Part shown: positions 1-11,667 of the stretch, one piece after another
How the letters are laid out: each line of letters starts with the position of its first letter
Numbering within the stretch: position 1 is the stretch's first letter
DNA from: Kordiimonadaceae bacterium
Lineage (GTDB): Bacteria > Pseudomonadota > Alphaproteobacteria > Sphingomonadales > Kordiimonadaceae
Assembly (NCBI GenBank): GCA_017640725.1
Contig: JAEPQB010000002.1
Span: forward strand, 682,001-746,000
Direction of reading: 5' to 3'
DNA: 64,000 bases
The notes under the pieces: generated by a model
What the model was told of the DNA's origin: nothing
The model's database searches: none
What the model saw: only the letters and a program-made list of their open reading frames with translations
Position numbers and translations under genes: made by a program

Positions 1-1674
1 ATCAATACTGTAGGTCAGTGTTTCACTCGGCTCCCACGATATACCTTCTGTCAAAAATGCGTCGAAGTCGCCTTCCGCACCATCTGTCAGTGCTGCATTA
101 CCGGTGCCTGACGGGGAAAACATGTCGCGGGTCAATTCATCGACCGCAATGTTTTCAATTGTTATTGAGGCATAGGGCAAGCTGATCAGGGTGTTGCCGT
201 CAACGTCAGAGGCATTGAGTAAAATTTCTTCAAAACTTATCGGCCGAACAAAAGCCACCCCTTGCAAATTTGGGTCCGCGTGATCGTAGGCCAGCACGAT
301 TTGAATGAAATCTCCTTCAGTCCTGTCGAAATCGGTTATTGTGACACTGAAAGGGTCTTGTCTTCCTTCGAAACTTGATATGCGGAAAGTATCAGCACCG
401 TCACCCCCTGCTAAGGTCGATGTGCCGTTGGAGACTGTTATCAAGTCAGGCCCTGAACCGGCATCAACGATGGCAGAGTCTGACGTTGAAACAATAATTT
501 GGTCGAAGCCATCACCACCAAGCAATGTATCGTCGCCATTTGACCCGGAAAACAGAATGTCTTGCCCGCCAGCGCCGTCCAGATAGTCACTGCCAAATTC
601 GCCGCTTAGCAGGTTGAAACTGCCATCACCAATGATACGGTCGTCAAAATTGGTTCCAAAAACACGCTCGATCCCGGACACAATGTCGGTCTCACCAGAT
701 TCCAGCACAGCAGTGCCATTCGCAGCATCAAAAACAACACCCGAACCTGCGCCGCGATAGTCGACCGTATCAAAGTCGCCTTCGCCGCCGTCCAGCGTGT
801 CGTCGCCGTTGCCACCGATCAATGTATCTCTGTCACCGCCGCCGCCCAGCAGCAAGTCATCGCCGTCACCACCCGACAGCAAGTCATCCTCCGCTCGGCC
901 AGCAAGGGTGTCATCCCCATTTGTGCCGGTCAGGGTGTCTTTCGCTATTTCAAGGCCATCAAAACTTTCAACTGTAATGCCCCGAACAATGGCAATAAAT
1001 TGCCCGGATTCCGTGAGCGTAATGACGCTGTCACCCGCATATTCCCCCGTGCCCGGCGCAATGGAGAAGGCGGACAAATCCTGTAGAATAAACAAGTTGC
1101 CAATATCGTCGCGACCTACCTCAAAGTCAGTAATGACTGCGGCATCTTCAATGTTATCGACACCCAACTCTACACTGATATAGAAAAGGTCACTTCCAGC
1201 ACCACCTGTCACCGTGTCGCCCGGACCAGCGTTCAGCGTGTCGTCACCAGCACCTGCCATCAGCACATCAGCGCTTTGTTCCGCGTCAGCCTCCAATACA
1301 GGATCACCTGACAGGAAATCGTCACCTGAGCCCGCAATCAGGGTGTCGGACCCCAGCCCACCAAACAAAAAGGCATTGTGTCCATCGACTTCTATGCGGT
1401 CGTTGCCTGAGGAGCCTGTGACTCGAACAGCCTCCACACCAATCAGAGTGTCCGTGCCAAACTGCTCTGACTGAGCCACATTATTATTGATGCTCAAAGT
1501 GTCGGCGCTGCTGAACTCGTATCGGACTGTGTCGAAAATCGAAGGGCCAGCATCCAGCACATCATTGCCAGCTGAGCCAAACAAATTGTCTGATCCCGCA
1601 CCAGCTTCAATGGTGTCAGCACCATCGGTTCCGTTCAAAGAGTCGTCAAAATCAGTGCCTACTATTTGCGGCAT
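1..1674 (-). CDS. RTX-type calcium-binding repeat protein, N-terminal part
   Basis: Probably a large secreted calcium-binding protein. The first 558 residues are visible and the frame runs off the left edge without a stop. It starts at an ATG (1672-1674) with sequence MPQIVGTDFDDSLNG. There is no signal peptide, as expected for type I secretion, whose signal would lie at the unseen C-terminus. Many nonapeptide repeats of the GGxGxDxLx kind occur in clusters, for example GSAGNDVLDAG near residue 35, GGNGDDTLDGG near 295 and GGDGFDQIIV near 390, separated by beta-rich linkers. Cargo function cannot be told from this part. It lies just outside the integrated element on its left, so it is host chromosome. 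No type I secretion genes are in the window. Confidence 0.85.
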   Translation of the reverse strand, partial: MPQIVGTDFDDSLNGTDGADTIEAGAGSDNLFGSAGNDVLDAGPSIFDTVRYEFSSADTLSINNNVAQSEQFGTDTLIGVEAVRVTGSSGNDRIEVDGHNAFLFGGLGSDTLIAGSGDDFLSGDPVLEADAEQSADVLMAGAGDDTLNAGPGDTVTGGAGSDLFYISVELGVDNIEDAAVITDFEVGRDDIGNLFILQDLSAFSIAPGTGEYAGDSVITLTESGQFIAIVRGITVESFDGLEIAKDTLTGTNGDDTLAGRAEDDLLSGGDGDDLLLGGGGDRDTLIGGNGDDTLDGGEGDFDTVDYRGAGSGVVFDAANGTAVLESGETDIVSGIERVFGTNFDDRIIGDGSFNLLSGEFGSDYLDGAGGQDILFSGSNGDDTLLGGDGFDQIIVSTSDSAIVDAGSGPDLITVSNGTSTLAGGDGADTFRISSFEGRQDPFSVTITDFDRTEGDFIQIVLAYDHADPNLQGVAFVRPISFEEILLNASDVDGNTLISLPYASITIENIAVDELTRDMFSPSGTGNAALTDGAEGDFDAFLTEGISWEPSETLTYSID

Positions 1675-1794
1675 AAAATCCCCCAACCATTAGCCATGCG
1701 TCCAGCGACGCCAAGTAAGGACATTAAGCAGGTATGCTGTTGCGTCAACACAAATGGTCCAAAATGAACCTACAAGAAGAAAATGTGATGAGGG

Positions 1795-1845
1795 TTCAAA
1801 TGGTGGTCGGTATTGGGTTCGAACCAACGACCTCTTCGATGTCAA
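1795..1845. repeat. attL: copy of the 3' part of tRNA-Val
   Basis: This 51 bp stretch is identical to 11092-11142. It corresponds to tRNA nucleotides 32-76 plus 6 bp beyond the CCA end, and there is no 5' half here, so it is not a tRNA gene. It marks the left end of the element. In the 337 bp between the RTX start (1674) and the first element gene (2012) I see nothing else that is functional. Confidence 0.93.
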
Positions 1846-2011
1846 AAATCTGCTCCCGTTGAGATTGCTAAACTTTCCGATTTTCCAGCACGAACCCTCG
1901 GTTCAATAAAATCAATCACTTACCGGATTGGAGATTTTGTTTCGCAAATCAGTTTGCGTTTCTCGTGGCACTTGATGAGCGTTTACGAGACAGACAATAC
2001 GCGGGGCAAAT

Positions 2012-2635
2012 ATGTGTGAGCCACGGCATATTCCAGTAACCATTATGGTCCCGGAAGCTGTTGCGGATGAGGTTCGCGCCCACGGCTTAGCCATTGCTGA
2101 AACTGCTTCGCGCGAGGCTGAAGCACGATTGCGACAAATCGAAGCGAATAAGCTTGAGCGACAAGAACTCGTCCAAAAACGAAGTGCAATTTTGAGGCTG
2201 GCACCGCAGGCTTACCGCCGCTATCGGCAGCTATTACGATCTGGCGTATCCAGGTCAATGGCGTTGTCTGCAATTGGTGCAGAGCTAGAACTCCCTGTAA
2301 CATTGACTGTCACACTCATCCGGCTGAGAAAAAAGGCGGTTCACGATTATATTGTTCGACGACGAACGCAGACCATTATCCGGTTGAAACTGCGCAAAAG
2401 AAGCTACCCCTTCATAGCTGGATACTGCGGTGTAACAACACAAACAGTACGCAGAACTCTACGCACATTTGAGCAACAATTCAGCTCTCAAACCACACAG
2501 CTGAATGGCGAGATTATCAGGCTCAGGTTCAAGAAACTAAAGCAGGCAGATATTGCTCAAAAGCTGGGCTGCTCAAAGCAAACCGTAATCCGGGCACAGA
2601 AAGCTGCGCGCTGGTTCGCGAGAGTTAAAACATGA
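2012..2635 (+). CDS. left-end DNA-binding protein with two HTH-like segments
   Basis: A 207-residue protein of unknown role. The N-terminal third (about 15-60) is a charged helix rich in E, A and R that could form a coiled coil. Two helix-turn-helix-like segments follow. The first lies around RSYPFIAGYCGVTTQTVRRT (about 130-150). The second lies around KQADIAQKLGCSKQTVIRAQ (about 178-197) and has the spacing of a resolvase or homeodomain-like HTH. The start at 2012 has a weak GGGG-type ribosome site; an internal ATG at 2045 is an alternative. It is the first gene inside attL and converges with the minus-strand membrane genes. It may act at the element ends or as a regulator (inference). I do not recognise the family. 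Confidence 0.7.
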   Translation: MCEPRHIPVTIMVPEAVADEVRAHGLAIAETASREAEARLRQIEANKLERQELVQKRSAILRLAPQAYRRYRQLLRSGVSRSMALSAIGAELELPVTLTVTLIRLRKKAVHDYIVRRRTQTIIRLKLRKRSYPFIAGYCGVTTQTVRRTLRTFEQQFSSQTTQLNGEIIRLRFKKLKQADIAQKLGCSKQTVIRAQKAARWFARVKT

Positions 2636-2661
2636 TCCGGCTCGCAACACTTCCTAAAAAA

Positions 2662-3408
2662 TCAGCCGTTCTTAACGAACTCCGAAATGGCTTCTCGGAA
2701 GGCTTTGGTTTTTTGCTCGTTACTAATGTCGACTGTTTTACCAGTGATGGTGCATATCAGATTGAAAGCCAAACGGCGCGCTTCCAACCCACAGTCGACC
2801 CACTGATCAACTTCACTTTCTTCCAACCCAAAACCATTTGTGAAGTTTCGCATTTCGTTCCGCAAAGCATAGTTAGTTACAGACACTTCTGCGACAAATT
2901 TAACTGGAAGCTCAGTTACTTTTGCCCCCCATGTTTCCATCAGGTTTGGAGGGGTTGGAATAAGATTTTTCAGGCCTTCTTTTACATTCGCAGAGGCGAC
3001 TTCATCCTTCGCAATGAATTTCCTGGCGACATCCGCAGAGCCAAGAATTCCCGACAAGTCACTCTCAAAAATGAGAAGTTGGGCACAAACAATTCTTTCG
3101 ATCTTCGTTCGGAATTCGCTACGTTCCTCAGCAGCTCGCTCAATCTCTTGTTGGCGATCCTGTTTGCGCCATTTTTCCATGTTGTTTTTGGAGTAGACCG
3201 CAACACACACAGCAACAACCGAGGCCCCCACAGCAGCAAGTGGCCCAACCCAAATAGCCAAAAACTGAGACAGCGTCGGTTGGTCCGCCAGCGGATGCAC
3301 GCAACAGTTCTGCACCGGCGCGAAAAAACTGCCGGCCGTGTAAGCAATAACTGCTACGGCCGTGACCGTAAAAAATGCAACAATTTTGCCTGTGTAGGTA
3401 CTGTTCAT
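2662..3408 (-). CDS. two-TM protein with coiled coil, paralogue 1
   Basis: A 248-residue membrane protein of unknown function. TM1 is about residues 8-29 and TM2 about 48-71; between them is a short loop with C35-C36. A charged, coiled-coil-like stretch (about 75-105) leads into a helical C-terminal domain. It is colinear with its neighbour at 3520-4287: both have a CC pair at exactly residues 35-36 and W53-x-G55-P56 entering TM2, which argues for tandem duplication. The PVYD-type motif of the other copies is degenerate here (PPNLMETWG, about 153-161). An upstream TTG at 3444 is possible, but the ATG at 3408 precedes the first membrane segment directly and is preferred. Confidence 0.72.
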   Translation of the reverse strand: MNSTYTGKIVAFFTVTAVAVIAYTAGSFFAPVQNCCVHPLADQPTLSQFLAIWVGPLAAVGASVVAVCVAVYSKNNMEKWRKQDRQQEIERAAEERSEFRTKIERIVCAQLLIFESDLSGILGSADVARKFIAKDEVASANVKEGLKNLIPTPPNLMETWGAKVTELPVKFVAEVSVTNYALRNEMRNFTNGFGLEESEVDQWVDCGLEARRLAFNLICTITGKTVDISNEQKTKAFREAISEFVKNG

Positions 3409-3519
3409 CTGTTTGCTTTCAATTGCCAAAACTCTCAGTCTCAAAAATCACCGGAGCACCTACTTACCGTGGCACATTGGCCGATTGTCTCAACTCCGGC
3501 TCGCCGCTGCTTTGGAAGC

Positions 3520-4287
3520 TCACATTTCCAGAGCTTTTATGTAGTCCTTGCAACAATCGATATATCTCTCGAGGCAGGTTTTGGCGTGAAGGGTCAACAT
3601 ATTGCTTTGTGGAGAGGCACTACCCTTATTGGCTTCCTCAATGTTTCTTTGGGCCTGCTGGAGCGCATATCGATATTTGGGTTCAAGAGTTGTAATCACT
3701 TCAATTACACTTTTGTTCAGCAACACCACATTCTGGCCCATTTGATCGTAAACTGGGCGATCGGGATTTATACTGTCAATAAGACCCAACAAGTTGGTCA
3801 GACTTTCGTCATTGTCAATTTCATCAACAATGTTTCCCGCTTGCTCGCTAGCTACTTTGAGTTCAGCGATAAGGCCCTTGCGGATAGAACGTCTGAGAAC
3901 ATTTCTGTCGGCAACAGCTTCAGTTTCACGTCGTTTCCACTCAGCCTGTTGTCGAAAATCTGCTTTTTGATCAAGAGTATTTTGGTTTTCGATTTGCAGT
4001 TTAAACCGCCGTTCGGCTTTTTTCTCTCTCAACAATTCAACGCGAACTTGCTGTCGGAATCTTCGATCCGCGGCGAAGTTATTCCACACGGCAATGACTA
4101 TGGCGATGATCCCGGCAACAGGACCCGACCACGCAGCCACGAAATCATTGACAGATGGGGGCAAATAACCCGGTGGCGTGCAACATCTTTCAGGAACATA
4201 GAAATGTTGGCCAGCCGCATAACCTATGACCACAAAGGACATTGCTGCCACTACAATTGCGGCAATCATCTTCGAACTGATTTTCAT
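3520..4287 (-). CDS. two-TM protein with coiled coil, paralogue 2
   Basis: A 255-residue membrane protein of unknown function. TM1 (about 7-27) is followed by a loop with C35-C36 and prolines, TM2 (about 49-69), a long highly charged helix (about 72-130, probable coiled coil), and a C-terminal helical domain with DRPVYDQMGQN (about 176-186). The start is supported by a GGAG ribosome site 7 bases upstream. It lies 111 bp upstream of paralogue 1 in the same orientation. Seen: shared CC and WxGP positions with paralogue 1 and a shared PV[YF]D motif with the protein at 5355-6101. Inferred: the paired cysteines face the periplasm and could form a disulphide or bind a metal. Confidence 0.75.
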   Translation of the reverse strand: MKISSKMIAAIVVAAMSFVVIGYAAGQHFYVPERCCTPPGYLPPSVNDFVAAWSGPVAGIIAIVIAVWNNFAADRRFRQQVRVELLREKKAERRFKLQIENQNTLDQKADFRQQAEWKRRETEAVADRNVLRRSIRKGLIAELKVASEQAGNIVDEIDNDESLTNLLGLIDSINPDRPVYDQMGQNVVLLNKSVIEVITTLEPKYRYALQQAQRNIEEANKGSASPQSNMLTLHAKTCLERYIDCCKDYIKALEM

Positions 4288-4661
4288 CGACTAACTCCAT
4301 CCTTCATATGGCGCCATCAAGAACACCGAGCATGTTCAATCGGAGCCTTCATGTTGATTGAACGTAAAGGAGTTTGCAACTGATGATGGTAATTTTCGGA
4401 TACTCTTGCAATTCTCTTTTTCCTTTCTGGGAGGTGGAAGCCCCAGAAGGGTTTTCGGAGCAGGAGGATAGTGCTCAAGCGCTATCCTCCTCATCTGACT
4501 TTCATCCCTGCTCTGAAAAACACTTTGCTTCCCCAAGCCGCGCGAGCGGCGCGGAGCAACCCATATTTCAAATGCGCTTCTCAAATCGTCAAATCGCGAT
4601 ATCGGCCGCTTTAATGCGCACTCGCAAGCAAGTTGGCTGTCGTCTATCCGGCAAAATTATC
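4288..4661. other. 374 bp structured noncoding region inside the element
   Basis: I see no credible gene here, but there are three inverted repeats. One has 8-base arms, GTTCAATC at 4334-4341 and GATTGAAC at 4356-4363. The second is a strong stem-loop at 4462-4491 (listed separately). The third is a G+C-rich hairpin at 4538-4554 with CCGCGC and GCGCGG arms. None is followed by a T-run in either direction, so they do not read as ordinary terminators. For an element that may replicate by rolling circle, a structured intergenic region is a reasonable place for a single-strand origin (inference). Confidence 0.5.
4462..4491. repeat. 13 bp stem, 4-base loop hairpin
   Basis: The arms are AGGAGGATAGTGC (4462-4474) and GCGCTATCCTCCT (4479-4491) with loop TCAA. 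On the plus strand the single non-Watson-Crick pair is a T-G wobble; on the minus strand it would be a C-A mismatch, so the hairpin is stronger on the plus strand. GAGCAGG (4458-4464) and CCTGCTC (4507-4513) can form an alternative longer pairing. Candidate single-strand origin or RNA structure; function unproven. Confidence 0.6.
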
Positions 4662-5300
4662 TCAATTCGCCAGCAACAGGGGCCCCAAGTTGAAAATCGC
4701 CGCAACCGCCAACAGCAGTGGAAGCATCACATCTTTCATTACGAATTCCAGCAGACGGATAGAAAGCAAACTCTTAGTTTCAGAACTAAAAATCTTGGTT
4801 TGGCCACTTGGACTGTTGAATCTTTTGATAGTTGTCCCATCGAAAAACACGTTTTCTGCGCCTCCAAAATAGCGAAGTTTAAACCAGTTCCTAAATGCCT
4901 CACGCAAACTGTTCATAGAGAGAGAAGCCGGCGGCACAGACTTGAACCTAATTACCTGCTCTGCACTTGCTGCATAGAACAATGCCAAGGGAAACCAAAG
5001 AATGGGAAGTGCTGCACTGGGGTGGATGCTGCATACACTGGATTTCCAGACCTTATAATCGGAAAGCACTCCCACTGTAGCCGCGACCAGATTGTACAAA
5101 ATGAGAACCAAGGAGCCCCAAATAACCGTATAAGGGTCCAGCGAAACTCCAAAAAACTGAAGGTCCGCGAAAGTCGCCTTTGCGTCAATTGTTACCAAGC
5201 ATATGAGTGCACTCACAATCAGTGTGTTTCGTTTATAATTGCGAGAAGAGTCCGATATTATGGGGCCTTTCTCACACAAAGCTATCGCCACATCATTCAT
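4662..5300 (-). CDS. multi-pass membrane protein of unknown function
   Basis: A 212-residue protein with about four hydrophobic segments: about 26-42, 58-80 (VIWGSLVLILYNLVAATVGV), 97-116 and 188-212. Between the third and fourth is a soluble stretch of about 70 residues with many aromatic and basic residues. A GGAGG ribosome site sits 9 bases before the ATG. It does not share the coiled coil or the PV[YF]D motif of its neighbours, so I treat it as a separate family. It lies 54 bp downstream of the protein encoded at 5355-6101 and is probably cotranscribed with it. Role unknown. Confidence 0.7.
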   Translation of the reverse strand: MNDVAIALCEKGPIISDSSRNYKRNTLIVSALICLVTIDAKATFADLQFFGVSLDPYTVIWGSLVLILYNLVAATVGVLSDYKVWKSSVCSIHPSAALPILWFPLALFYAASAEQVIRFKSVPPASLSMNSLREAFRNWFKLRYFGGAENVFFDGTTIKRFNSPSGQTKIFSSETKSLLSIRLLEFVMKDVMLPLLLAVAAIFNLGPLLLAN

Positions 5301-5354
5301 CTTTTGAAACCTCCATGCGGCCCGATTAGTACCGGGCAGTTACAGGCAGAATTT

Positions 5355-6101
5355 TTACCCAGCGTTCATCGCCGATCTCCGAGACTCTTCAAGAGCTTCC
5401 ATGTATGCGATCGATGTTTTTCGCAGCCGATTAGCTCGGTTAGAAATTGCTACACGTCGCTCATAAGAGTGATTGCGATCCTGTACACAAGCCGCAAATT
5501 CGTCTACGGCGTGCTGATAACTAGATTGTTGTCGCGAGATCGCACCAACAACTTGAGGCGGCAAGTCACCTATGGATTGACCCAAATTGTCGAATACCGG
5601 TCTGCAAGGTGTAGTTACGCATTCATCAAACACAATGTACCATTGCGAGCGGGTGAACTTGGTCGCGTCCATTTTGGCAAGTTTTCGGGTGTCGTAGGCC
5701 ACACAGTCGAGTTCCATTATAAGCCCATCACAAAGGGCACTGATACGCTCTTGTTTTTTTGTGGCGTCCCTCGAAAGCTCTTCCAAAGTCTCTTTTTGCC
5801 GCTTGTCCCATTCTTGTTGCTGCCGGCGGTTGGCTTCTCGGTTCAAAGCGACCTGGAGCTTCATCTGCTCTCTAATCCGAAAGTTGCCCAATACAGCGTT
5901 GAGCATGGCAACTGTAACACCGATCGCTGCCGAGTAACCAATCCACATAAGCCGTTGATCGCCTGCCTCCCTGAAAAGGTAAGCGTTGTAGAGGACCGCA
6001 CCAATCAAGAACAAGTAGGAAAGCAATACCAAGAAAGACTGCCAAGTATTATTGCGGACCTTCAAATTTTGCTGTTTTTCGCTTTCGTCTGTGCGTGTCA
6101 T
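5355..6101 (-). CDS. two-TM protein with coiled coil, paralogue 3
   Basis: A 248-residue membrane protein. TM1 (about 20-43) and TM2 (about 51-73) are joined by a very short loop, then a long charged helix follows (about 76-125, rich in Q, R, E and K, probable coiled coil), and then a C-terminal helical domain with CRPVFDNLGQSIGDLPPQVV (about 166-185). The PVFD motif and the following leucine-rich helix match PVYD in paralogue 2 and PIYD in paralogue 4. The track-length frame begins at a TTG (6116), but the ATG at 6101 is the more likely start. It is divergent from the rep gene, with the origin-like hairpin in between. Function unknown. Confidence 0.75.
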   Translation of the reverse strand: MTRTDESEKQQNLKVRNNTWQSFLVLLSYLFLIGAVLYNAYLFREAGDQRLMWIGYSAAIGVTVAMLNAVLGNFRIREQMKLQVALNREANRRQQQEWDKRQKETLEELSRDATKKQERISALCDGLIMELDCVAYDTRKLAKMDATKFTRSQWYIVFDECVTTPCRPVFDNLGQSIGDLPPQVVGAISRQQSSYQHAVDEFAACVQDRNHSYERRVAISNRANRLRKTSIAYMEALEESRRSAMNAG

Positions 6102-6165
6102 GTCAAGCTTATCCAATTCAAAAAAAACAACTATAAACGTATTGAGAACACGTCATACTTGCAAG

Positions 6166-6188
6166 CCCCCCACCCTCTAATAGGGGGG
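6166..6188. other. candidate rolling-circle double-strand origin hairpin
   Basis: CCCCCC (6166-6171), a bulged A, CCC (6173-6175), loop TCTAATA (6176-6182), GGGGGG (6183-6188). The loop with its flanking C gives CTCTAATA. From memory, pT181-family Rep_trans initiators nick in a hairpin loop with CTCT-AATA, so the match is pointed given that a Rep_trans-type gene starts 42 bp downstream. The match to pT181 is knowledge recalled, not searched; that this is the origin is inference. Confidence 0.6.
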
Positions 6189-6229
6189 ATACTGTCTACA
6201 CAGACCCATAAAACGCACGAGGCACGACA

Positions 6230-7426
6230 ATGAGCCGAGTGCGCCCCGATATTCTACATGAACAGTGCAATGACGATTATGGTCTGCTGATTTGCCACAA
6301 CTTCGATTGGTGGCAAGAAGCCCTGAACCTGCTGGTTCCGGCTACTTTGTGGCAAAGCATGCTGCTATCCAAAGAGGAAGCCCGCGAGCTAGACGATAGC
6401 AATAAGGCTTCAGTACCGTTCACATTTGGTGGTGAGAAGTTTGAGTTGCAGGCCTATGGGCTGCGCAGCAAAGAGTTCGTTCTCATCAATGATGATCTGC
6501 GTCTTGAGATTGGTCGCACAGACACGGCAATGGAGTGGACCTTTGGCTGGCGTGCAACAGCTGCCGGCTTGTGGGAGCACGGCGTGCACGCACTCAGGAA
6601 GCGTGTCTATACGATGTGTCATCAAGCAGGCCTGCGGCCGCGATTTGATGGCCAACCGTGGGTTAAGCTCTCGAGAGCGGATTATGCCTTCGATTTTTGG
6701 GCACCCGGTTTCACGCCTGAAATGGAGCCGGGCATTGCAGATCGCTTTGTATTGCCTCCCGGCGTCAAGGGCCACGGCAACTTCTATCTGAAAAGCCCAA
6801 AGAAAGGGCAGCATCGCGCCCAGCTCGAAACCTTCACTATTGGGAAGAAGGGCCGACTGGAAATCCAGATATATGACAAGCTCACGGAAATCCGTGAGGC
6901 TTCCGGTAAAGAATGGATGTTCGAAGTCTGGGCAGACTATGGCTATCAGCCTCCGGGCGACCCGTCCGATATCTGGCGAGTTGAAGTGCGCATGGCCGGG
7001 GACTGGCTCAAGAAGCGTACTAACAAGGACCCTCAGCAGTTCCTAGAGCTGATGTGGGAGCTGATTGCAGAAGGCTTACAAAGCCGCCGTCTGGTGGTTC
7101 CGCAGGAAACAGACTGTAATCGCTCACGCTGGCCTCTTCACTCGCTATGGAGCCTTGCAATAGATGCTGTCGGCAACCCGGCAGAGTTCGTGCCTGTAGG
7201 CCGCAAAATCACGGCTAAGCGATCCGAGGTCGTCAAGCAATTCCAGACCGCCATCGCAGGATATATGCGCACAGCCGCCGTCGTGGAGCATGGCATCACC
7301 TTCTCCGAGGAAGAGCTCACAGAATTAGCCAACAAGGTGGTGACTGAGGCTTTGGCTGACAAAGATCATGGAAGGAAGATTGCCCGCACTCAAGGACGCT
7401 ACGAATTTGTGGATGAAGCCCGATGA
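6230..7426 (+). CDS. Rep_trans/RstA-like replication initiation protein
   Basis: A 398-residue protein that probably nicks the element's origin to start rolling-circle replication. Motifs seen in order fit the Replication initiation factor (Rep_trans, PF02486) family: LSRADYAFD (147-155), RLEIQIYDKLTEI (209-221, with Y215 in the conserved YDK box) and WRVEVRM (249-255). The same order occurs in filamentous-phage RstA proteins and pT181-type Rep. Length is in the family range. The ATG follows a weak AGGC-type site. The gene is divergent from the membrane-gene cluster, and the candidate origin hairpin lies at 6166-6188. The catalytic tyrosine cannot be fixed without alignment. Family call good, exact subfamily uncertain. 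Confidence 0.8.
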   Translation: MSRVRPDILHEQCNDDYGLLICHNFDWWQEALNLLVPATLWQSMLLSKEEARELDDSNKASVPFTFGGEKFELQAYGLRSKEFVLINDDLRLEIGRTDTAMEWTFGWRATAAGLWEHGVHALRKRVYTMCHQAGLRPRFDGQPWVKLSRADYAFDFWAPGFTPEMEPGIADRFVLPPGVKGHGNFYLKSPKKGQHRAQLETFTIGKKGRLEIQIYDKLTEIREASGKEWMFEVWADYGYQPPGDPSDIWRVEVRMAGDWLKKRTNKDPQQFLELMWELIAEGLQSRRLVVPQETDCNRSRWPLHSLWSLAIDAVGNPAEFVPVGRKITAKRSEVVKQFQTAIAGYMRTAAVVEHGITFSEEELTELANKVVTEALADKDHGRKIARTQGRYEFVDEAR

Positions 7427-7461
7427 ATTTTCTTCAACAGCCGCTTTCGGCAAAGAGGTTT

Positions 7462-8076
7462 TCAATTGAAACCGTTAAGAAAGCCCGACGGATTACCCAA
7501 ATCAAATCCGTCTGGGATACCTGCAGCAGCTCGCTCCTCTGGCCCCATATCAGTGCCGAGGGCTTCTTGGTAACTGATCATGGAAAGACCATACAAAACC
7601 AACAAATTTGCTCTGCAGGTGGCGAGCCGTTCATCCGAAGTGGTGACAAAGGGGCTATTAGGTCCGGGGGCATTCACCCGCCTCAGCAACTCAACGCGGG
7701 AGACGAGGGCGGGCCCCCATTCGGACTGCAATATGTGGTCGCGATAGCCATCATAAATAGGAAAATAGTATCGCGGGCGCACGACAACTTTACTTGTTTT
7801 GGCACAGAAGACGTTTGTCTCTGTTATCAAGTTATTTACCTCAGAATGGAAAGCTATGGCGACCGCCTTCCGCATATTCTCTTGCTGACTAGCAGCGGCG
7901 TAATCTGCATAAAATGCAGCGATCGCTACGCTGAAAAACGCAATAACGGCAGCAAAAAAGGTTTGGTGGTCTCTAAACCATTTTTTGCTTTTGCCCTTGG
8001 CAACAAGAATACAGGCGAACAGCAAAGCGATTGCGAACACTGCAACTACGTAATTTGCAAAAAGCACAGCAAACAC
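7462..8076 (-). CDS. two-TM protein, paralogue 4 (short)
   Basis: A 204-residue protein with TM1 about 4-26 and TM2 about 38-62, then a shorter helical region and the motif RYYFPIYDGYRDHI (about 102-115), which aligns with PVYD and PVFD in paralogues 2 and 3. The long coiled coil is missing. The C-terminus is Gly/Pro-rich. The start is GTG at 8076; the AAGAG upstream is very close to it, and no better in-frame start exists before the upstream stop, so the start is uncertain. It is separated from the other membrane genes by rep and converges with it. Function unknown. Confidence 0.68.
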   Translation of the reverse strand: MFAVLFANYVVAVFAIALLFACILVAKGKSKKWFRDHQTFFAAVIAFFSVAIAAFYADYAAASQQENMRKAVAIAFHSEVNNLITETNVFCAKTSKVVVRPRYYFPIYDGYRDHILQSEWGPALVSRVELLRRVNAPGPNSPFVTTSDERLATCRANLLVLYGLSMISYQEALGTDMGPEERAAAGIPDGFDLGNPSGFLNGFN

Positions 8077-8195
8077 CTCTTTTTGAGTGATCTGGATTCA
8101 AGGCAACAATGCTCTTTTGAATTGTTTTTTTCAACTGCTGATGCAGTCGGATTGGTGGAAAATTATTCATCGCCACTATCCAGCTTTTCCGATTT

Positions 8196-8222
8196 TTCCG
8201 GACCACGTAGATCGGTCCGGAA
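8196..8222. promoter_or_regulatory. 9 bp inverted repeat, candidate operator of XRE gene
   Basis: Perfect arms TTCCGGACC (8196-8204) and GGTCCGGAA (8214-8222) with a 9-base spacer lie in the 252 bp between the two divergent genes at 8076 and 8329. Two further copies of a related motif follow, TTCGAAAAAACCGA (from 8225) and TCCGAAAAAACCGA (from 8290), plus a reversed TTTTCCGATTTTTCCGG-like stretch just before (about 8186-8200). Repeated motifs before an XRE gene suggest autoregulation (inference). Confidence 0.5.
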
Positions 8223-8328
8223 TTTTCGAAAAAACCGAGCAATTTCAATGGCCCGATCCCCACCCGGCACCCGAAAACCCAAATTTCATTCCGAAAAAAC
8301 CGAACAGGGAATAACTAGGAGAAACATC

Positions 8329-9072
8329 ATGAATTCCCATCAATTCGACTTTCCTGAGGAAGCGCAAACACTCGGCGACAGGATCAAGTTTATCCGTGAT
8401 GACAAGGGCATCTCTAGGGAGCAGTTAGCCGGAAAAATCGGCGTATCACATCGTACGGTGGCTCACTATGAACAAGGCAGTTCAAGCCCCACAGTAGCGA
8501 TGCTTTATAAAATTGCCAATCGGCTAAGAGTGTCACCAATTGAGCTCGCTTTCGGCAAAAGCCAGACAACCAAACTACAAACTGAACAGAAGTATGAGCT
8601 GGATGAAAGCGGCAAACAGGTCTCTACAGCGATTGCAGAGATTATTGTGCTCCGAGAAAAAGGCTTTCCACTGGAAAAAACTGATGAAATTCAGACTTGG
8701 ATTGCAAACATTGTATCTTTGCGCAGGGATTTAAAAGAAGAAGACTGGATCCATTTGACTAATGGATATGATGTCGAATTTGAAGACTTGCTGGAGGATT
8801 TTGAAGGAGAAGAGTTGTCTAACTTATTGATGGTCAGACTAATTGACAAAGCCATTGTTGGACTAGCACTCGATCTACTTTCAAAAGACCAACTAGCTCA
8901 GATTATGCAGGTAGTGGAAGAAGACCCGCAATGTTGGGGCTTATTGGGCTATTCTTGGGAAAGCCTTGATGAAATAATAATTGCGGAGAACGTTCGGGCA
9001 CCATTCTACAAGTACTGTCTTGCCGGAAAAGAATTGCCTAACTCAATCGGTAAACGATCTTCAAGTGCATAG
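8329..9072 (+). CDS. XRE-family regulator with long C-terminal domain
   Basis: A 247-residue transcription factor. An HTH_3 domain covers about residues 15-77: LGDRIKFIRDDKGISREQLA, then GVSHRTVAHYEQG. The remaining 170 residues are acidic and helical, without recognised motifs. The frame is open far upstream, but the real start is the ATG at 8329, with AGGAG 8-9 bases before it and the HTH beginning soon after. Repeated operator-like motifs lie directly upstream. It probably controls the lysogeny-like state of the element or its own transcription (inference). Confidence 0.82.
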   Translation: MNSHQFDFPEEAQTLGDRIKFIRDDKGISREQLAGKIGVSHRTVAHYEQGSSSPTVAMLYKIANRLRVSPIELAFGKSQTTKLQTEQKYELDESGKQVSTAIAEIIVLREKGFPLEKTDEIQTWIANIVSLRRDLKEEDWIHLTNGYDVEFEDLLEDFEGEELSNLLMVRLIDKAIVGLALDLLSKDQLAQIMQVVEEDPQCWGLLGYSWESLDEIIIAENVRAPFYKYCLAGKELPNSIGKRSSSA

Positions 9073-9110
9073 AGGCCTTCTTGGCTGCTTACCAGCTAAA
9101 CGACACCAGT

Positions 9111-9140
9111 CAGATTGTAGCAACCAATCGCAACAATCTG
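9111..9140. repeat. 8 bp inverted repeat after the first XRE gene
   Basis: CAGATTGT (9111-9118) and ACAATCTG (9133-9140) are separated by 14 bases. No T-run follows, so it is a weak terminator candidate at best; it may be a protein-binding site. Confidence 0.35.
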
Positions 9141-9232
9141 GCTGCAGAAGCGAAGACATGTTGATGTTGGTTTTAGGAATTGAGCTGAATCGTTTTTGAC
9201 AATCGTTTTCCGAAAAATTCTTCATAACGATC

Positions 9233-9281
9233 TTGACTTAGTATTTATTTTTTGTACTTATTGTATCACTTTTTAATACAA
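9233..9281 (+). promoter_or_regulatory. promoter and operator-like repeat of second XRE gene
   Basis: TTGACT (9233-9238) and TACTTA (9255-9260) have 16 bp spacing and sit 33 bp before the ATG. The inverted repeat TTGTAT (9261-9266) / ATACAA (9276-9281) overlaps the expected transcription start, where a repressor would block initiation. Sequence-based only. Confidence 0.45.
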
Positions 9282-9292
9282 GAATATAAGAT

Positions 9293-9796
9293 ATGAATGC
9301 TAATTCAGTAGAAATTCCAACGTTAGGACAGGTCTTGCGAGGTGCGAGAGAGGCCAAAGGCGTCTCCAGAACAGCCATGGCAAAGCTGACCGGAATAAAC
9401 CTGAATTCACTTGCTAAATACGAGAAAGCCGGATCAAGAAACGGACAATTCCCCCCTTTGGCTATCCTGATCAAAATCATTGTTTTTTTGAAACTAGACC
9501 CACGCCTAGCACTCATTTCAGCTGCGGAAACTAACGAGGATGCAAAACAGCTTCTGGAAGTGTCCGCACTCAACTCCAGTGATGAGTTTCTTGGAGGGCT
9601 ATTTGGCTCGCAAATTTTAAGAGCTGAGAGGGAATTTAGCACCGCGTGGTTGCATCAATTGTTCGGCGAGTTTGCACAGCAGCATGACTACAATCACAAA
9701 AAAGGCTCAGAGGTAGATTTGCCGTCCCCTCTGAGCCCTGATCCACAATCAACACCCATCGGAAAACAGGAGAAGGAAAGTGGAAGCACAAACTAG
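9293..9796 (+). CDS. XRE-family regulator, second copy
   Basis: A 167-residue protein with an HTH_3 domain at about residues 11-72: LGQVLRGAREAKGVSRTAMA, then GINLNSLAKYEKAG. It ends in a charged, proline-rich tail. It is not closely similar to the XRE protein at 8329-9072 outside the HTH. The ATG at 9293 lies just after an operator-like palindrome, with little ribosome-site sequence. Its 3' end overlaps the excisionase-like gene by 17 bases, so it is probably cotranscribed with the excisionase and integrase and may control them. Confidence 0.82.
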   Translation: MNANSVEIPTLGQVLRGAREAKGVSRTAMAKLTGINLNSLAKYEKAGSRNGQFPPLAILIKIIVFLKLDPRLALISAAETNEDAKQLLEVSALNSSDEFLGGLFGSQILRAEREFSTAWLHQLFGEFAQQHDYNHKKGSEVDLPSPLSPDPQSTPIGKQEKESGSTN

Positions 9797-10145
9797 TCCT
9801 CCAGATGAAATTGCACAAGCCCTTGAAGCTCTCCCGCTCTTTATGAGTGTGAAACAAGCCGCCACTTTTCTGAACATTCACCCTGAGACGGTTAGGAAGA
9901 TGGGCAAATGTGGTGAGCTCACGGTGATACGCCCTAAAGGTCGCCAGATGCGCGTTCCACGATCTGCAATTGCGAAATACCTGGAGATAAATATATGTCA
10001 CGCCCAAGGCAGGGACCACGGCTTGTCCGCGTGTCCGGAAAAGACAACTGGTACATTAAAGACGGAACTGTCCGCGGTAAAAACGGACGCAGCTTCCAGC
10101 TTTCGACAGGAACTGACAATCGGGAGGAAGCTGAATGCTTTCTAG
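9780..10145 (+). CDS. excisionase-like HTH_17 DNA-binding protein
   Basis: A 121-residue protein. Residues about 21-70 form a MerR/excisionase-type winged HTH: LFMSVKQAATFLNIHPETVR, then RPKGRQMRVPRSAIAKYLE. Such proteins bend attachment-site DNA and bias the integrase towards excision. The GTG start has a clear AGGAGAAGGAA ribosome site; an ATG at 9843 would give a shorter form. The gene overlaps the integrase start by 151 bp, and its last 50 residues are encoded entirely inside the integrase reading region, so that tail may be dispensable. The position just before the integrase supports the call. Confidence 0.75.
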   Translation: MEAQTSPPDEIAQALEALPLFMSVKQAATFLNIHPETVRKMGKCGELTVIRPKGRQMRVPRSAIAKYLEINICHAQGRDHGLSACPEKTTGTLKTELSAVKTDAASSFRQELTIGRKLNAF

Positions 10146-11065
10146 CTTCCTACATAGCCCGGAAGGCTATCCCTGCCCAACCCACAATTTCTCAGCTACT
10201 AGAGATAAGGCTAGAGGACATGAGGGCACGCAAGGTGCGTCGGGTGCCGACCGTAGAGTACGCGCACAAGGCACTCCGCAAACATTTCGGAAACTTACGC
10301 CCCGAACAGCTTTCGTTGCCACTTCTGAGCCGCTTCCGCGAGCAATACAACTACGTGCCTGCAATGTTGAGGGAATATCTTTTGGAGATGAAAACAACAC
10401 TCCAAATGGCAGTGAACCACAACATTATAGACCGAGCTCCTCCAATACTGTTGCCACCCAAAAGCCCGCCAAGGGACAGATTTCTGACCAAGAAAGAAGC
10501 AGAAGCATTGTGGAACGCGGCCTACTCTGCGCACGTGAAGCTATTCATTCAACTGTCCCTCGTGACCGGAGCAAGGAAGGAGGCGCTCCTTCAACTCACT
10601 TGGGATCGAGTAAACCTGATCGACGCCCGGATCGACTTCAACGATCCAAACAGACCGATCACCAACAAACGCCGGCCCCTGTCTCCAATTACCCAAGAAA
10701 CGGTTGCGACCTTGAAAACAGCAAAACAGTTCGCCGAAACGAGTCACGTGATCGAGTTCAACGGAAAACCGTTAAAAGATATCAAGAAGGGGTTTGCTCT
10801 CGCCGCCCAAAAGGCAGGCTTAGAGGGTGTCACGCCGCACACTCTGAAACATACCGCCATTTCGTGGCTAGCGCAGGGCGGTCGCCCGATAGAAGGCATT
10901 TCAGCTATGACCGGCACCAACGCAAACACTGTAAGGCGCATCTATCAGAAATTCGCACCAGAATATCTGCAAGAAGAGGCGGAAATACTGGCGAAAGCCA
11001 CCAGTTTCGCAACTCAGTTTGCCAAACTAACGGAAACATCTCCGGACACGGAGGGAGCACAATGA
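9995..11065 (+). CDS. tyrosine recombinase (integrase)
   Basis: A 356-residue phage-type integrase that would recombine attP with the tRNA-Val gene. It has an N-terminal arm-binding region (1-60), a core-binding SAM-like domain (about 62-145) and a catalytic domain. Visible catalytic positions: R194 in TGARKEALLQLTW, K225 in NKRRPLSP, H282 in HTLKHTAISWL, and nucleophile Y317 in RIYQKF. The second arginine is replaced by K285, and the usual GH of box III is G307-T308; such replacements occur in some integrase clades. GGAG stands 8 bases before the ATG. The gene ends 26 bp before attR, next to the target tRNA. Confidence 0.92.
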   Translation: MSRPRQGPRLVRVSGKDNWYIKDGTVRGKNGRSFQLSTGTDNREEAECFLASYIARKAIPAQPTISQLLEIRLEDMRARKVRRVPTVEYAHKALRKHFGNLRPEQLSLPLLSRFREQYNYVPAMLREYLLEMKTTLQMAVNHNIIDRAPPILLPPKSPPRDRFLTKKEAEALWNAAYSAHVKLFIQLSLVTGARKEALLQLTWDRVNLIDARIDFNDPNRPITNKRRPLSPITQETVATLKTAKQFAETSHVIEFNGKPLKDIKKGFALAAQKAGLEGVTPHTLKHTAISWLAQGGRPIEGISAMTGTNANTVRRIYQKFAPEYLQEEAEILAKATSFATQFAKLTETSPDTEGAQ

Positions 11066-11091
11066 ACTCAAACGATTGGGAAACAAGGGTT

Positions 11092-11142
11092 TTCAAATGG
11101 TGGTCGGTATTGGGTTCGAACCAACGACCTCTTCGATGTCAA
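11092..11142. repeat. attR: 51 bp repeat overlapping tRNA-Val
   Basis: This is identical to 1795-1845. It includes 6 bp beyond the CCA end and tRNA nucleotides 76 back to 32, so strand exchange near the anticodon loop restores an intact tRNA. This is the standard pattern for integrases that use the anticodon-stem region as crossover site. Confidence 0.93.
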
Positions 11143-11173
11143 CGAAACGCTCTACCAACTGAGCTAACCGACC
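11098..11173 (-). tRNA. tRNA-Val (anticodon GAC)
   Basis: A 76-nt cloverleaf can be folded by eye. The acceptor stem is GGTCGGT/ACCGACC with discriminator A and an encoded CCA. The D-arm begins GCTC, the anticodon stem is TTTCG/CGAAG with loop TTGACAT (anticodon G34-A35-C36, reading GUC), and the T-arm carries GTTCGAAC. Nucleotides 1-31 come from the host side and 32-76 from the element side of the junction. It is the integration target of the element to its left. Confidence 0.95.
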
Positions 11174-11328
11174 GTGCCATTTGCAAATTGGCGCAGGGCG
11201 CGCCAACGGGAAGACTGTATAAAACGCACCTTTTCGCCGTGCAAGTGGAAAATCGATGCAGAAAATGCAATTCAGCTGCGGCGCCCTGCCGCTCGACAGC
11301 ACTATGGCAATACGCTAAAACCGGCACC

Positions 11329-11667
11329 ATGAAATTCGTTCAACATCTCTTGCTGGTGGCGTCCCTCGTGTTCGCAAGCTGCCAATGCGTGACGGCGGCT
11401 GAGCCGACTTATGGCGCGGATATGGCCATGGAAGACTGCCATGACGCGCCAGCAGTTGAGGTGATGAGCGATGACTGCTGCGAGCAGGACGCAACCACAA
11501 CGAAGGTGGAACTGCCTAAAAAACATAGCGGTTTGGACGCTACTGCAATTACACCACCCTCTGCCGCCAAACCTGTTGCCAATCGGGCCGCGTTCGATTT
11601 TGAGCGAAGACGCGGGCCACCCCGGCATGCCACCCCCACAGAAAAGTTTGACTGTCTCCGGATTTGA
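11329..11667 (+). CDS. small secreted Cys-rich protein of metal operon
   Basis: A 112-residue protein with an N-terminal signal peptide (MKFVQHLLLVASLVFASC); cleavage could be after VTA-A, or at a lipobox-like FASC. A metal-ligand-like cluster follows: MAMEDCHDAP, then MSDDCCEQD (about 36-55). The rest is low-complexity, with a basic C-terminus. The reading frame continues upstream through the tRNA, but only this part is plausible. It lies 43 bp before the TolC-like gene and multicopper oxidase, so a copper or other metal sensing or binding role is likely. CopL-like proteins have a similar layout (family knowledge); the assignment is tentative. Confidence 0.65.
   Translation: MKFVQHLLLVASLVFASCQCVTAAEPTYGADMAMEDCHDAPAVEVMSDDCCEQDATTTKVELPKKHSGLDATAITPPSAAKPVANRAAFDFERRRGPPRHATPTEKFDCLRI

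Follow-up and report, generated by a model that had tools for sequence, protein, structure and literature searches.

A tRNA-Val integrative element of Kordiimonas with a rolling-circle replicon very likely of corticovirus-like phage type

We analyzed a stretch of 64,000 nucleotides, hereafter the window, from a Kordiimonadaceae bacterium (assembly GCA_017640725.1, contig JAEPQB010000002.1, positions 682,001 to 746,000 of the forward strand) whose genus is Kordiimonas, and we describe here the element integrated in it at a tRNA-Val gene. The element is a 9,297-bp unit bounded by direct repeats that are identical at 51 of 51 positions (1795-1845 and 11092-11142), of which the right one extends over the 3' part of a tRNA-Val(gac) gene that is itself complete (11098-11173, minus strand). 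Its G+C content is 0.484, compared to 0.551 for the window beyond 11142. Eleven intact open reading frames (ORFs) were found, encoding an integrase, an excisionase-like (Xis-like) protein, the regulators XRE1, XRE2 and HTHact, a replication initiator (Rep) and five membrane proteins. Relaxase, coat and capsid domains were not recognized by Pfam on all eleven proteins or by PHROGs on ten of them (all except the Xis-like protein), the coat genes being sought in the element alone. A sequence-only reading of this DNA had proposed a 51-bp repeat at both ends with an adjacent integrase and an intact tRNA, five membrane proteins, and no relaxase, coat or capsid genes; each of these points was borne out, the membrane proteins by hydropathy. 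The features of the element are as follows (TM, transmembrane; HTH, helix-turn-helix).

1795..1845, no strand: left attachment (att) repeat, 51 bp, identical to 11092-11142
2012..2635, plus: HTHact, att-adjacent regulator with two HTH domains, 207 aa (HTH_23, E 1.4e-8)
2662..3444, minus: mem1, two N-terminal TM segments, resembles mem2; no Pfam family above cut-off
3520..4287, minus: mem2, two N-terminal TM segments and long helices (hydropathy; AlphaFold2 model)
4662..5300, minus: mem3, about four TM segments (hydropathy; no Pfam match)
5355..6116, minus: mem4, two TM segments, resembles mem2 (blastp E 2e-7; 2e-10 without composition correction)
6166..6188, plus: predicted double-strand origin, hairpin CCCCCC-ACCCTCTAATA-GGGGGG (origin model R2)
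6230..7426, plus: Rep, Rep_trans rolling-circle initiator, 398 aa (motifs, fold, tree)
7462..8076, minus: mem5, two N-terminal TM segments (hydropathy)
8329..9072, plus: XRE1 regulator, 247 aa (HTH_3, E 2.6e-15)
9293..9796, plus: XRE2 regulator, 167 aa (HTH_31, E 1.1e-6)
9780..10145, plus: excisionase-like HTH_17 protein, 121 aa (PF12728, E 3.8e-10)
9995..11065, plus: tyrosine integrase, 356 aa (PF00589, E 4.2e-13; phrog_1, E 2.1e-42)
11092..11142, no strand: right attachment repeat, inside tRNA-Val, identical to the left copy
11098..11173, minus: tRNA-Val(gac), the target gene, intact (tRNA prediction)

Integrated, with its own integrase and regulators and without a recognized capsid set, the element has the anatomy of a phage satellite. 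The integrase retains the R-, HxLKH- and Y-type positions, which we take to be catalytic. Its start is backed by a blastp alignment with the integrase of a related element (L105, see below) that begins at residue 1, and its frame overlaps that of the Xis-like protein by 151 bases (9780-10145, 9995-11065). The identical att copies, the intact ORFs and the intact Rep motifs make a decayed remnant, the fallback of the sequence-only reading, unlikely.

The earlier identification of Rep as a Rep_trans initiator stood by motifs and fold, but not by Pfam score, as the match to PF02486 (E 2e-4, 21.5 bits) is weak and below the Pfam cut-off of 29.6. Using the Rep_trans motif list of PMC5714925, we observed that R149xD151, T201/G205, Y215xK217xxE220 and R250xE252 are invariant among eight aligned Reps. 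The AlphaFold2 model of Rep (pLDDT 67, pTM 0.62) gave only two fold matches in the PDB at E≤0.001, 4cij (E 1.5e-6) and 4cwc (E 2.7e-6), both of them Rep_trans initiators, and Inoviridae proteins were among the top matches listed for a viral structure library. Pfam also gave a weak HTH_21 at residues 103-138 (E 0.027). Relatives of Rep were detected in 4 of 28 other genomes of the family, in 15 of 395 other genomes of our sample of the order (including those four) and in 20 of 384 other genomes of the class sample. With short peptide patterns alone, neither genome contigs nor viral contigs yielded a close relative of Rep; a search by alignment found 11 loci in the former and two in the latter, and plasmids gave three distant matches. 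With this initiator between its att copies, the locus almost certainly holds an integrative rolling-circle element.

We then placed Rep in a tree of 42 Reps, where it forms with those of loci L040, L041 and L085 a clade with a support of 100/99. This clade sits in a larger one of 11 rows (98/96) that includes both inovirus Reps, which fall outside the subclade of the window, elsewhere among the 11 rows. The closest Reps occur in prophages of tailless phages: L085 has a P2_C match above cut-off, L041 matches phrog_8536 and phrog_2666, and the capsid match in L040 is weak (phrog_8536, E 1.9e-4). L043 combines a P2 capsid (PF18628, E 9.6e-23; PF25513) with phrog_2666. L046 carries Zot and looks like an inovirus, and L095 carries Zot or a Zot-like relative. 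Among the tree labels, L045 and L066 are corticovirus-like mainly by a packaging-ATPase relative, L073 by such a relative and other shared clusters, and L040 by a capsid relative, its ATPase being not identified. The short Rep pieces L053 and L075 are left out of the tree, and L016 is a rep with stops. Elsewhere in the tree, eight rows form a well-supported clade (100/100; L092, L093, L094, L047, L049, L055, L057, L065), in all of which a relative of large serine recombinases (535-577 aa) adjoins rep.

A hairpin with arms of six C and six G (6166-6188) and a loop containing TCTAATA ends 41 nt upstream of rep, with a predicted CT'AA nick between 6178 and 6179. A C-run, a CTAAYA loop and a G-run also lie beside Rep in L040, L041, L042, L043, L044, L046, L085, L088 and L095, so that the motif adjoins 10 of the 11 Reps of the close clade, the window included; L045 is without it. 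In 1.516 Mb, both strands of the Rep-bearing loci, the pattern occurs ten times, each time beside a rep; since it was derived from these same ten sites, independent tests weigh more. The origin model R2, built from the nine relatives with the window left out, matches 6158-6222 with 28.1 bits (E 4.6e-6; runner-up 11.3 bits). A stricter hairpin pattern found at least 120 stretches in IMG/VR, 80 of which were examined as loci. A Rep was detected by profile in 26 of these 80 (54 are without a detected Rep); the hairpin lies on the Rep strand in 26/26, and at -50 to 600 nt before the Rep domain in 24/26. The model gave just two weak matches in 39 other loci (E 0.083 and 0.15), so the more distant Reps seem to have other origins. 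Folded as single-stranded DNA, the best structure contains the hairpin, and the 81-nt fold is unexceptional (18/200 shuffles equally stable, z -1.28). A GC-rich hairpin with CT'AA in its loop is the site nicked both by Rep_trans proteins and by MOBT relaxases (PMC9371924); such a hairpin is present at 6166-6188, and it fits a replication origin and a transfer origin (oriT) alike. A literature query with the nick sequence returned no relevant paper among the matches listed. Overall, the tree and the origin make it very likely that the replicon is of corticovirus-like phage type.

The regulators of the element have a different distribution. Of the 395 other genomes in the order sample, five have a relative of HTHact. 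In each of them (L104, L105, L106, L107, L111) the neighbourhood combines HTHact with an initiator, XRE1 and XRE2, an integrase being also present in four, with L106 as the exception. Among 366 other genomes of the class sample, the HTHact profile matched four: L120 is a sixth element with this backbone, L121 and L122 have the relative in or near corticovirus-like genes, and L119 has a broken copy near a dif-type site. HTHact is 27-30% identical to the regulators of the sister elements, and counterparts of XRE1 and XRE2 occur in each of the six. All six are bounded by repeats, at tRNA-Met, tRNA-Arg, tRNA-Phe (twice), tRNA-Val and, for L106, a dif-type site. Related elements, which the sequence-only reading had suggested seeking in other alphaproteobacteria, were thus found. 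One of them, L120, lies at tRNA-Val(gac) with a 19-bp repeat and has an integrase 42% identical to that of the window (341 aa, E 4e-79); its initiator belongs to Rep_1. Its Xis-like protein, in the same place, is 34% identical to that of the window (E 8e-11) and matches the excisionase family phrog_66; the only other counterpart was seen in L104, by place and a phrog_66 match. The ORF first picked as the L120 integrase was spurious, with no Pfam or PHROG match, tblastn showing the real one in another frame. The L105 integrase is 36% identical to that of the window. By tblastn with the window integrase (E 1e-3) against the six sister elements, only L105 and L120 matched, so the integrases of L104, L107 and L111 are more distant. 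Around the tRNA-Val gene, located in 17 of the 19 genus genomes (own included), we took the region from 12 other genus genomes; 11 were usable (L280 gave the wrong side), and none of the 11 had a relative of the element genes in the 8-12 kb on the 3' side (blastp E 1e-4). In two other Kordiimonas, the full tRNA-Val gene is accompanied by a second, partial copy at a distance of 1.7-1.9 kb (L272 8904-8960, L273 9656-9694), and no mobile gene was seen by eye in the ORFs between the copies.

The sister elements carry other rolling-circle initiators than the window. Those of L104, L111 and L120 match PF01446 Rep_1 above cut-off, and those of L105, L106 and L107 form one other family without a Pfam match above cut-off (weak Rep_1 or REP_ORF2-G2P, E about 0.1), in which an HUH-like motif was read by eye; the L106 and L107 initiators are 28% identical. 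As the backbone recurs with other initiators, backbone and replicon differ in history. A structured stretch of about 149 nt precedes the initiator in all six sister elements (L104 10483-10629, L105 9779-9927, L106 9609-9752, L107 9150-9298, L111 10931-11073, L120 10531-10673). With a model built from five of them, those five score 108-156 bits and the held-out sixth is detected with 33.7 bits (E 2.4e-7); no Rfam family matched at threshold. The stretch, possibly an origin or a regulatory RNA of the sister elements, is missing from the window element even in a search without any filter (best 5.6 bits). L106 (3994-10445), itself from a Kordiimonas, has no recognized integrase gene, a dif-type end and two regulators of the HTHact kind, and was probably integrated by XerCD. 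In viral contigs, no initiator of the L105/L107/L106 type was confirmed, and initiators of the Rep_1 type were found at 13 loci (10 of the 13 contigs under 8 kb), none with an HTHact match. HTHact and one prophage regulator had no match in INPHARED, and HTHact and mem2 had none in plasmids.

We further compared this backbone with corticovirus-like prophages. Dif-type sites were found in 5 of 15 such loci scanned (L040 1440, L043 2259, L070 17434, L073 18635, L109 17140), none being found in L041 or L085. In three of the five, the HTHact profile matched the gene beside the site (L040, E 3.9e-6; L109, E 2.7e-6; L070, E 5.6e-4). It also gave weak matches in L066, L088 and L110, which count little because HTH proteins cross-match easily. 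Further matches lie in L122, at the opposite end of L106, which thus has two copies, and in L096, a Zot-bearing viral contig. L296, on a contig of the Kordiimonas genome G021, is a corticovirus-like prophage (4349-5560, 8217-8891, 10508-11434) whose capsid and ATPase are 61% and 60% identical to those of L050 and L085, and the same genome holds the sister element L106. Its initiator is 42% identical to that of the sister element L107 (341 aa, E 8e-75) and 54% identical to a protein of prophage locus L110. Together with the Rep clade, this means that two unlike initiator types of backbone elements have relatives in corticovirus-like prophages. Near one end of L085, close to a predicted tRNA-Leu, an integrase-like protein is encoded, and the integrase-like protein of L296 is 58% identical to it; having an integrase of its own is therefore no distinction of the window element from such prophages. 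What was recognized in the element is a Rep of the clade with the hairpin origin, and not a P2 double-jelly-roll capsid or a P9-type ATPase.

From these observations, we propose that the locus is an intact, capsid-less, helper-dependent integrative element with a tailless-phage-type replicon and five orphan membrane proteins as cargo, a reading that we consider on balance probable. The integrase, with the Xis-like protein, would excise a circle of 9.3 kb at the 51-bp att core, as the anatomy suggests. At 6178/6179, Rep would cut the CT'AA of the hairpin loop, both initiator and origin being assigned by homology, and would drive rolling-circle replication of the circle, while HTHact, XRE1 and XRE2 would set the switch between the integrated and the replicating state. 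The replicon slot of the backbone would here be filled by a Rep and an origin of corticovirus-like phage type. As no transfer or packaging gene was recognized, spread would most likely occur by hitchhiking. The best candidate helper is a tailless corticovirus-like phage. We rank it first on two grounds: such prophages have replicon types and the regulator in common with these elements, and of 18 other genus genomes, five (G009, G010, G020, G021, G024) have strong, near full-length packaging-ATPase matches (E 1e-56 or better). This helper is also favoured by the occurrence of the L105-L107 initiator type in such prophages, by the HTHact relatives at the ends of some of them, and by the length of the element, near the 8.8-8.9 kb of Jorvik, a circular double-stranded DNA genome of 8,762-8,889 bp whose attP-adjacent HTH gene has been implicated in the choice between lysis and lysogeny (PMC10589892). 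Helper-dependent spread in tailless-phage particles is nonetheless a tentative part of the proposal, and a filamentous helper is less likely than a tailless one.

Several results weigh against this proposal. The own genome gave no match to the P2_N profile, by which the divergent capsids of G010 and G024 went undetected as well. A Zot gene was likewise not found there, and the packaging-ATPase match is weak and partial (an 811-aa frame, E 1.2e-4) and of a kind common among genus genomes; together, these results indicate that there is no resident helper. Compared with five corticovirus-like prophages of the genus or family, the intergenic DNA beyond the origin shares no stretch clearly above shuffles; the longest, 15 nt with L050, exceeds the 20 controls of L050 (maximum 13) and equals the top control of L085 and L109, so that this comparison revealed no packaging signal. 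No HTHact-type gene was found beside the dif-type sites of L043 and L073, and L296 is without an HTHact-type gene, a window-type Rep or a TCTAAYA hairpin. XRE1 is only 18-26% identical to its counterparts (five aligned). The window Rep had no match at 1e-5 in the INPHARED phages, where the presence of Jorvik is unchecked, and Jorvik integrates in a RuBisCO operon (PMC10589892). Finally, the best PADLOC match among the five membrane proteins has an E of only 0.0086.

The cargo genes are related among themselves: mem1 and mem2 are similar, as are mem2 and mem4, each of the three having two TM segments, and mem5 starts in the same way. The true start of mem1 is probably a later ATG. The AlphaFold2 model of mem2 is all-helical with a long helical part (pLDDT 73, pTM 0.46), and a profile of mem1, mem2 and mem4 found nothing in 295 other genomes of the order (296 searched including the own). 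Among other Rep_trans loci, ten long cargo ORFs from nine loci all matched PADLOC at E≤0.001, including Avs2, Dsr1, IetAS, type IIG restriction enzymes and a SIR2-type protein; six of the ten were picked after their Pfam results were known, some matches are partial, and L047, L056 and L057, three of the nine, do not clearly qualify as tyrosine-integrase elements. By analogy, the five membrane proteins would most likely act against competing phages and may be anti-phage or exclusion proteins; an anti-phage cargo is a plausible but tentative assignment. L052, L058, L062, L071, L072 and L077 are integrase-Rep_trans elements of 7-10 kb, bounded by tRNA-type repeats, whose long cargo genes match anti-phage systems, and represent a further class of capsid-less carriers.

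Four other explanations were weighed, with likelihoods that overlap and need not sum to one. The element could be an integrative and mobilizable element (IME) in which Rep acts as a MOBT-like relaxase and the hairpin as oriT, the circle being moved by a conjugative helper. MOBT relaxases are indeed related to Rep_trans initiators and share the CT'AA hairpin (PMC9371924), and Rep_trans IMEs are known in Firmicutes (PMC5704250, PMC7563843). However, Rep clusters with phage-type Reps, it shows a weak HTH_21 (E 0.027) where most MOBT relaxases of integrative and conjugative elements have an N-terminal HTH (PMC9371924), and in our reading a TACA-like stretch closely follows the hairpin in most relatives, like the bind site of Rep_trans origins; an IME is thus unlikely. 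A satellite of a filamentous phage, comparable to RS1, had been one of the two suggestions of the sequence-only reading. It would fit the presence of the hairpin next to rep in L046 and L095, and in numerous 5-13 kb contigs of IMG/VR, but we consider it improbable in view of the 100/99 corticovirus-like clade of Rep and of the Zot gene not found in the own genome.

The resemblance of Rep, origin and HTHact to those of corticovirus-like prophages, and the existence of L085 and L296, such prophages with their own tyrosine integrase, would also suit such a prophage immobilized after the loss of its shell genes, or else a domesticated island. The XRE1-XRE2 backbone, recurring in separate capsid-less elements, argues against this, and the identical att copies and intact ORFs speak against decay; we regard this origin as rather doubtful. 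It is similarly doubtful that the element is self-sufficient and plasmid-like, spreading by transformation or vesicles without a dedicated helper. The Rep_1 initiator of the sister element L111 matches 161 plasmid records versus 15 phage records, whereas regulators and initiator types common with phages suggest a coupling to phages.

If the helper-dependent reading is correct and the element rides tailless phages, it would open up a helper-satellite system, in a genus with named species and with a short defined origin to track. It could then be the first recognized satellite of tailless, membrane-containing double-jelly-roll phages, and belong to a broader group of alphaproteobacterial rolling-circle elements, capsid-less and integrated at tRNA genes or dif sites, that retain one regulatory backbone but draw unlike replication modules (initiator and origin) from a pool shared with those phages, a generalization that we put forward with more reserve than the proposal itself. 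Initiator exchange on a single regulatory backbone is a natural case for the study of replicon swapping, and some related Rep_trans elements carry genes matching anti-phage systems. In marine Vibrio, tailless prophages are reportedly frequent (PMC11630473). In the literature searched, seen as titles, abstract beginnings and passages and with most subscription journals outside it, we found no description of satellites of tailless phages or of this backbone.

Two further observations concern the window. On the left, the element adjoins a large RTX-repeat protein with a metalloprotease-like stretch (window 1-1686, L060 8147-11686; PF00353, PF01400), and two imperfect intergenic hairpins lie within it, at 4455-4498 (21-bp arms, between mem2 and mem3) and at 8185-8233 (20-bp arms, before XRE1).

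Compared with known systems, the element shares with actinobacterial integrative and conjugative elements such as pSAM2 the int-xis-rep modules at tRNA genes and rolling-circle replication, but differs from them in having no recognized FtsK-like transfer gene. With RS1, the satellite of CTXphi, it would have in common a Rep_trans initiator and regulators without coat genes, RS1 being distinguished by dif/XerCD integration and a filamentous helper. The phage satellites that we know of serve tailed phages. Satellites such as PICI and PICMI (the latter referenced in PMC11630473) are likewise compact, with integrase, replication genes and regulators and no capsid set; the element differs in its rolling-circle replicon of tailless-phage type and in that its helper is only a candidate. 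The MOBT IMEs of Firmicutes (PMC5704250, PMC7563843) also combine a Rep_trans protein, a CT'AA hairpin and an integrase, but differ in Rep phylogeny, the Rep of the element having only a weak HTH_21 and no conjugative partner being identified. In comparison with corticovirus-like prophages (Vinavirales; Jorvik-like, PMC10589892), the element is without a recognized P2 capsid, packaging ATPase or lysis genes and adds the XRE1-XRE2 backbone, and it shares with them the Rep subclade, the origin hairpin, a similar size class and, in some of them, the type of regulator at the att end.

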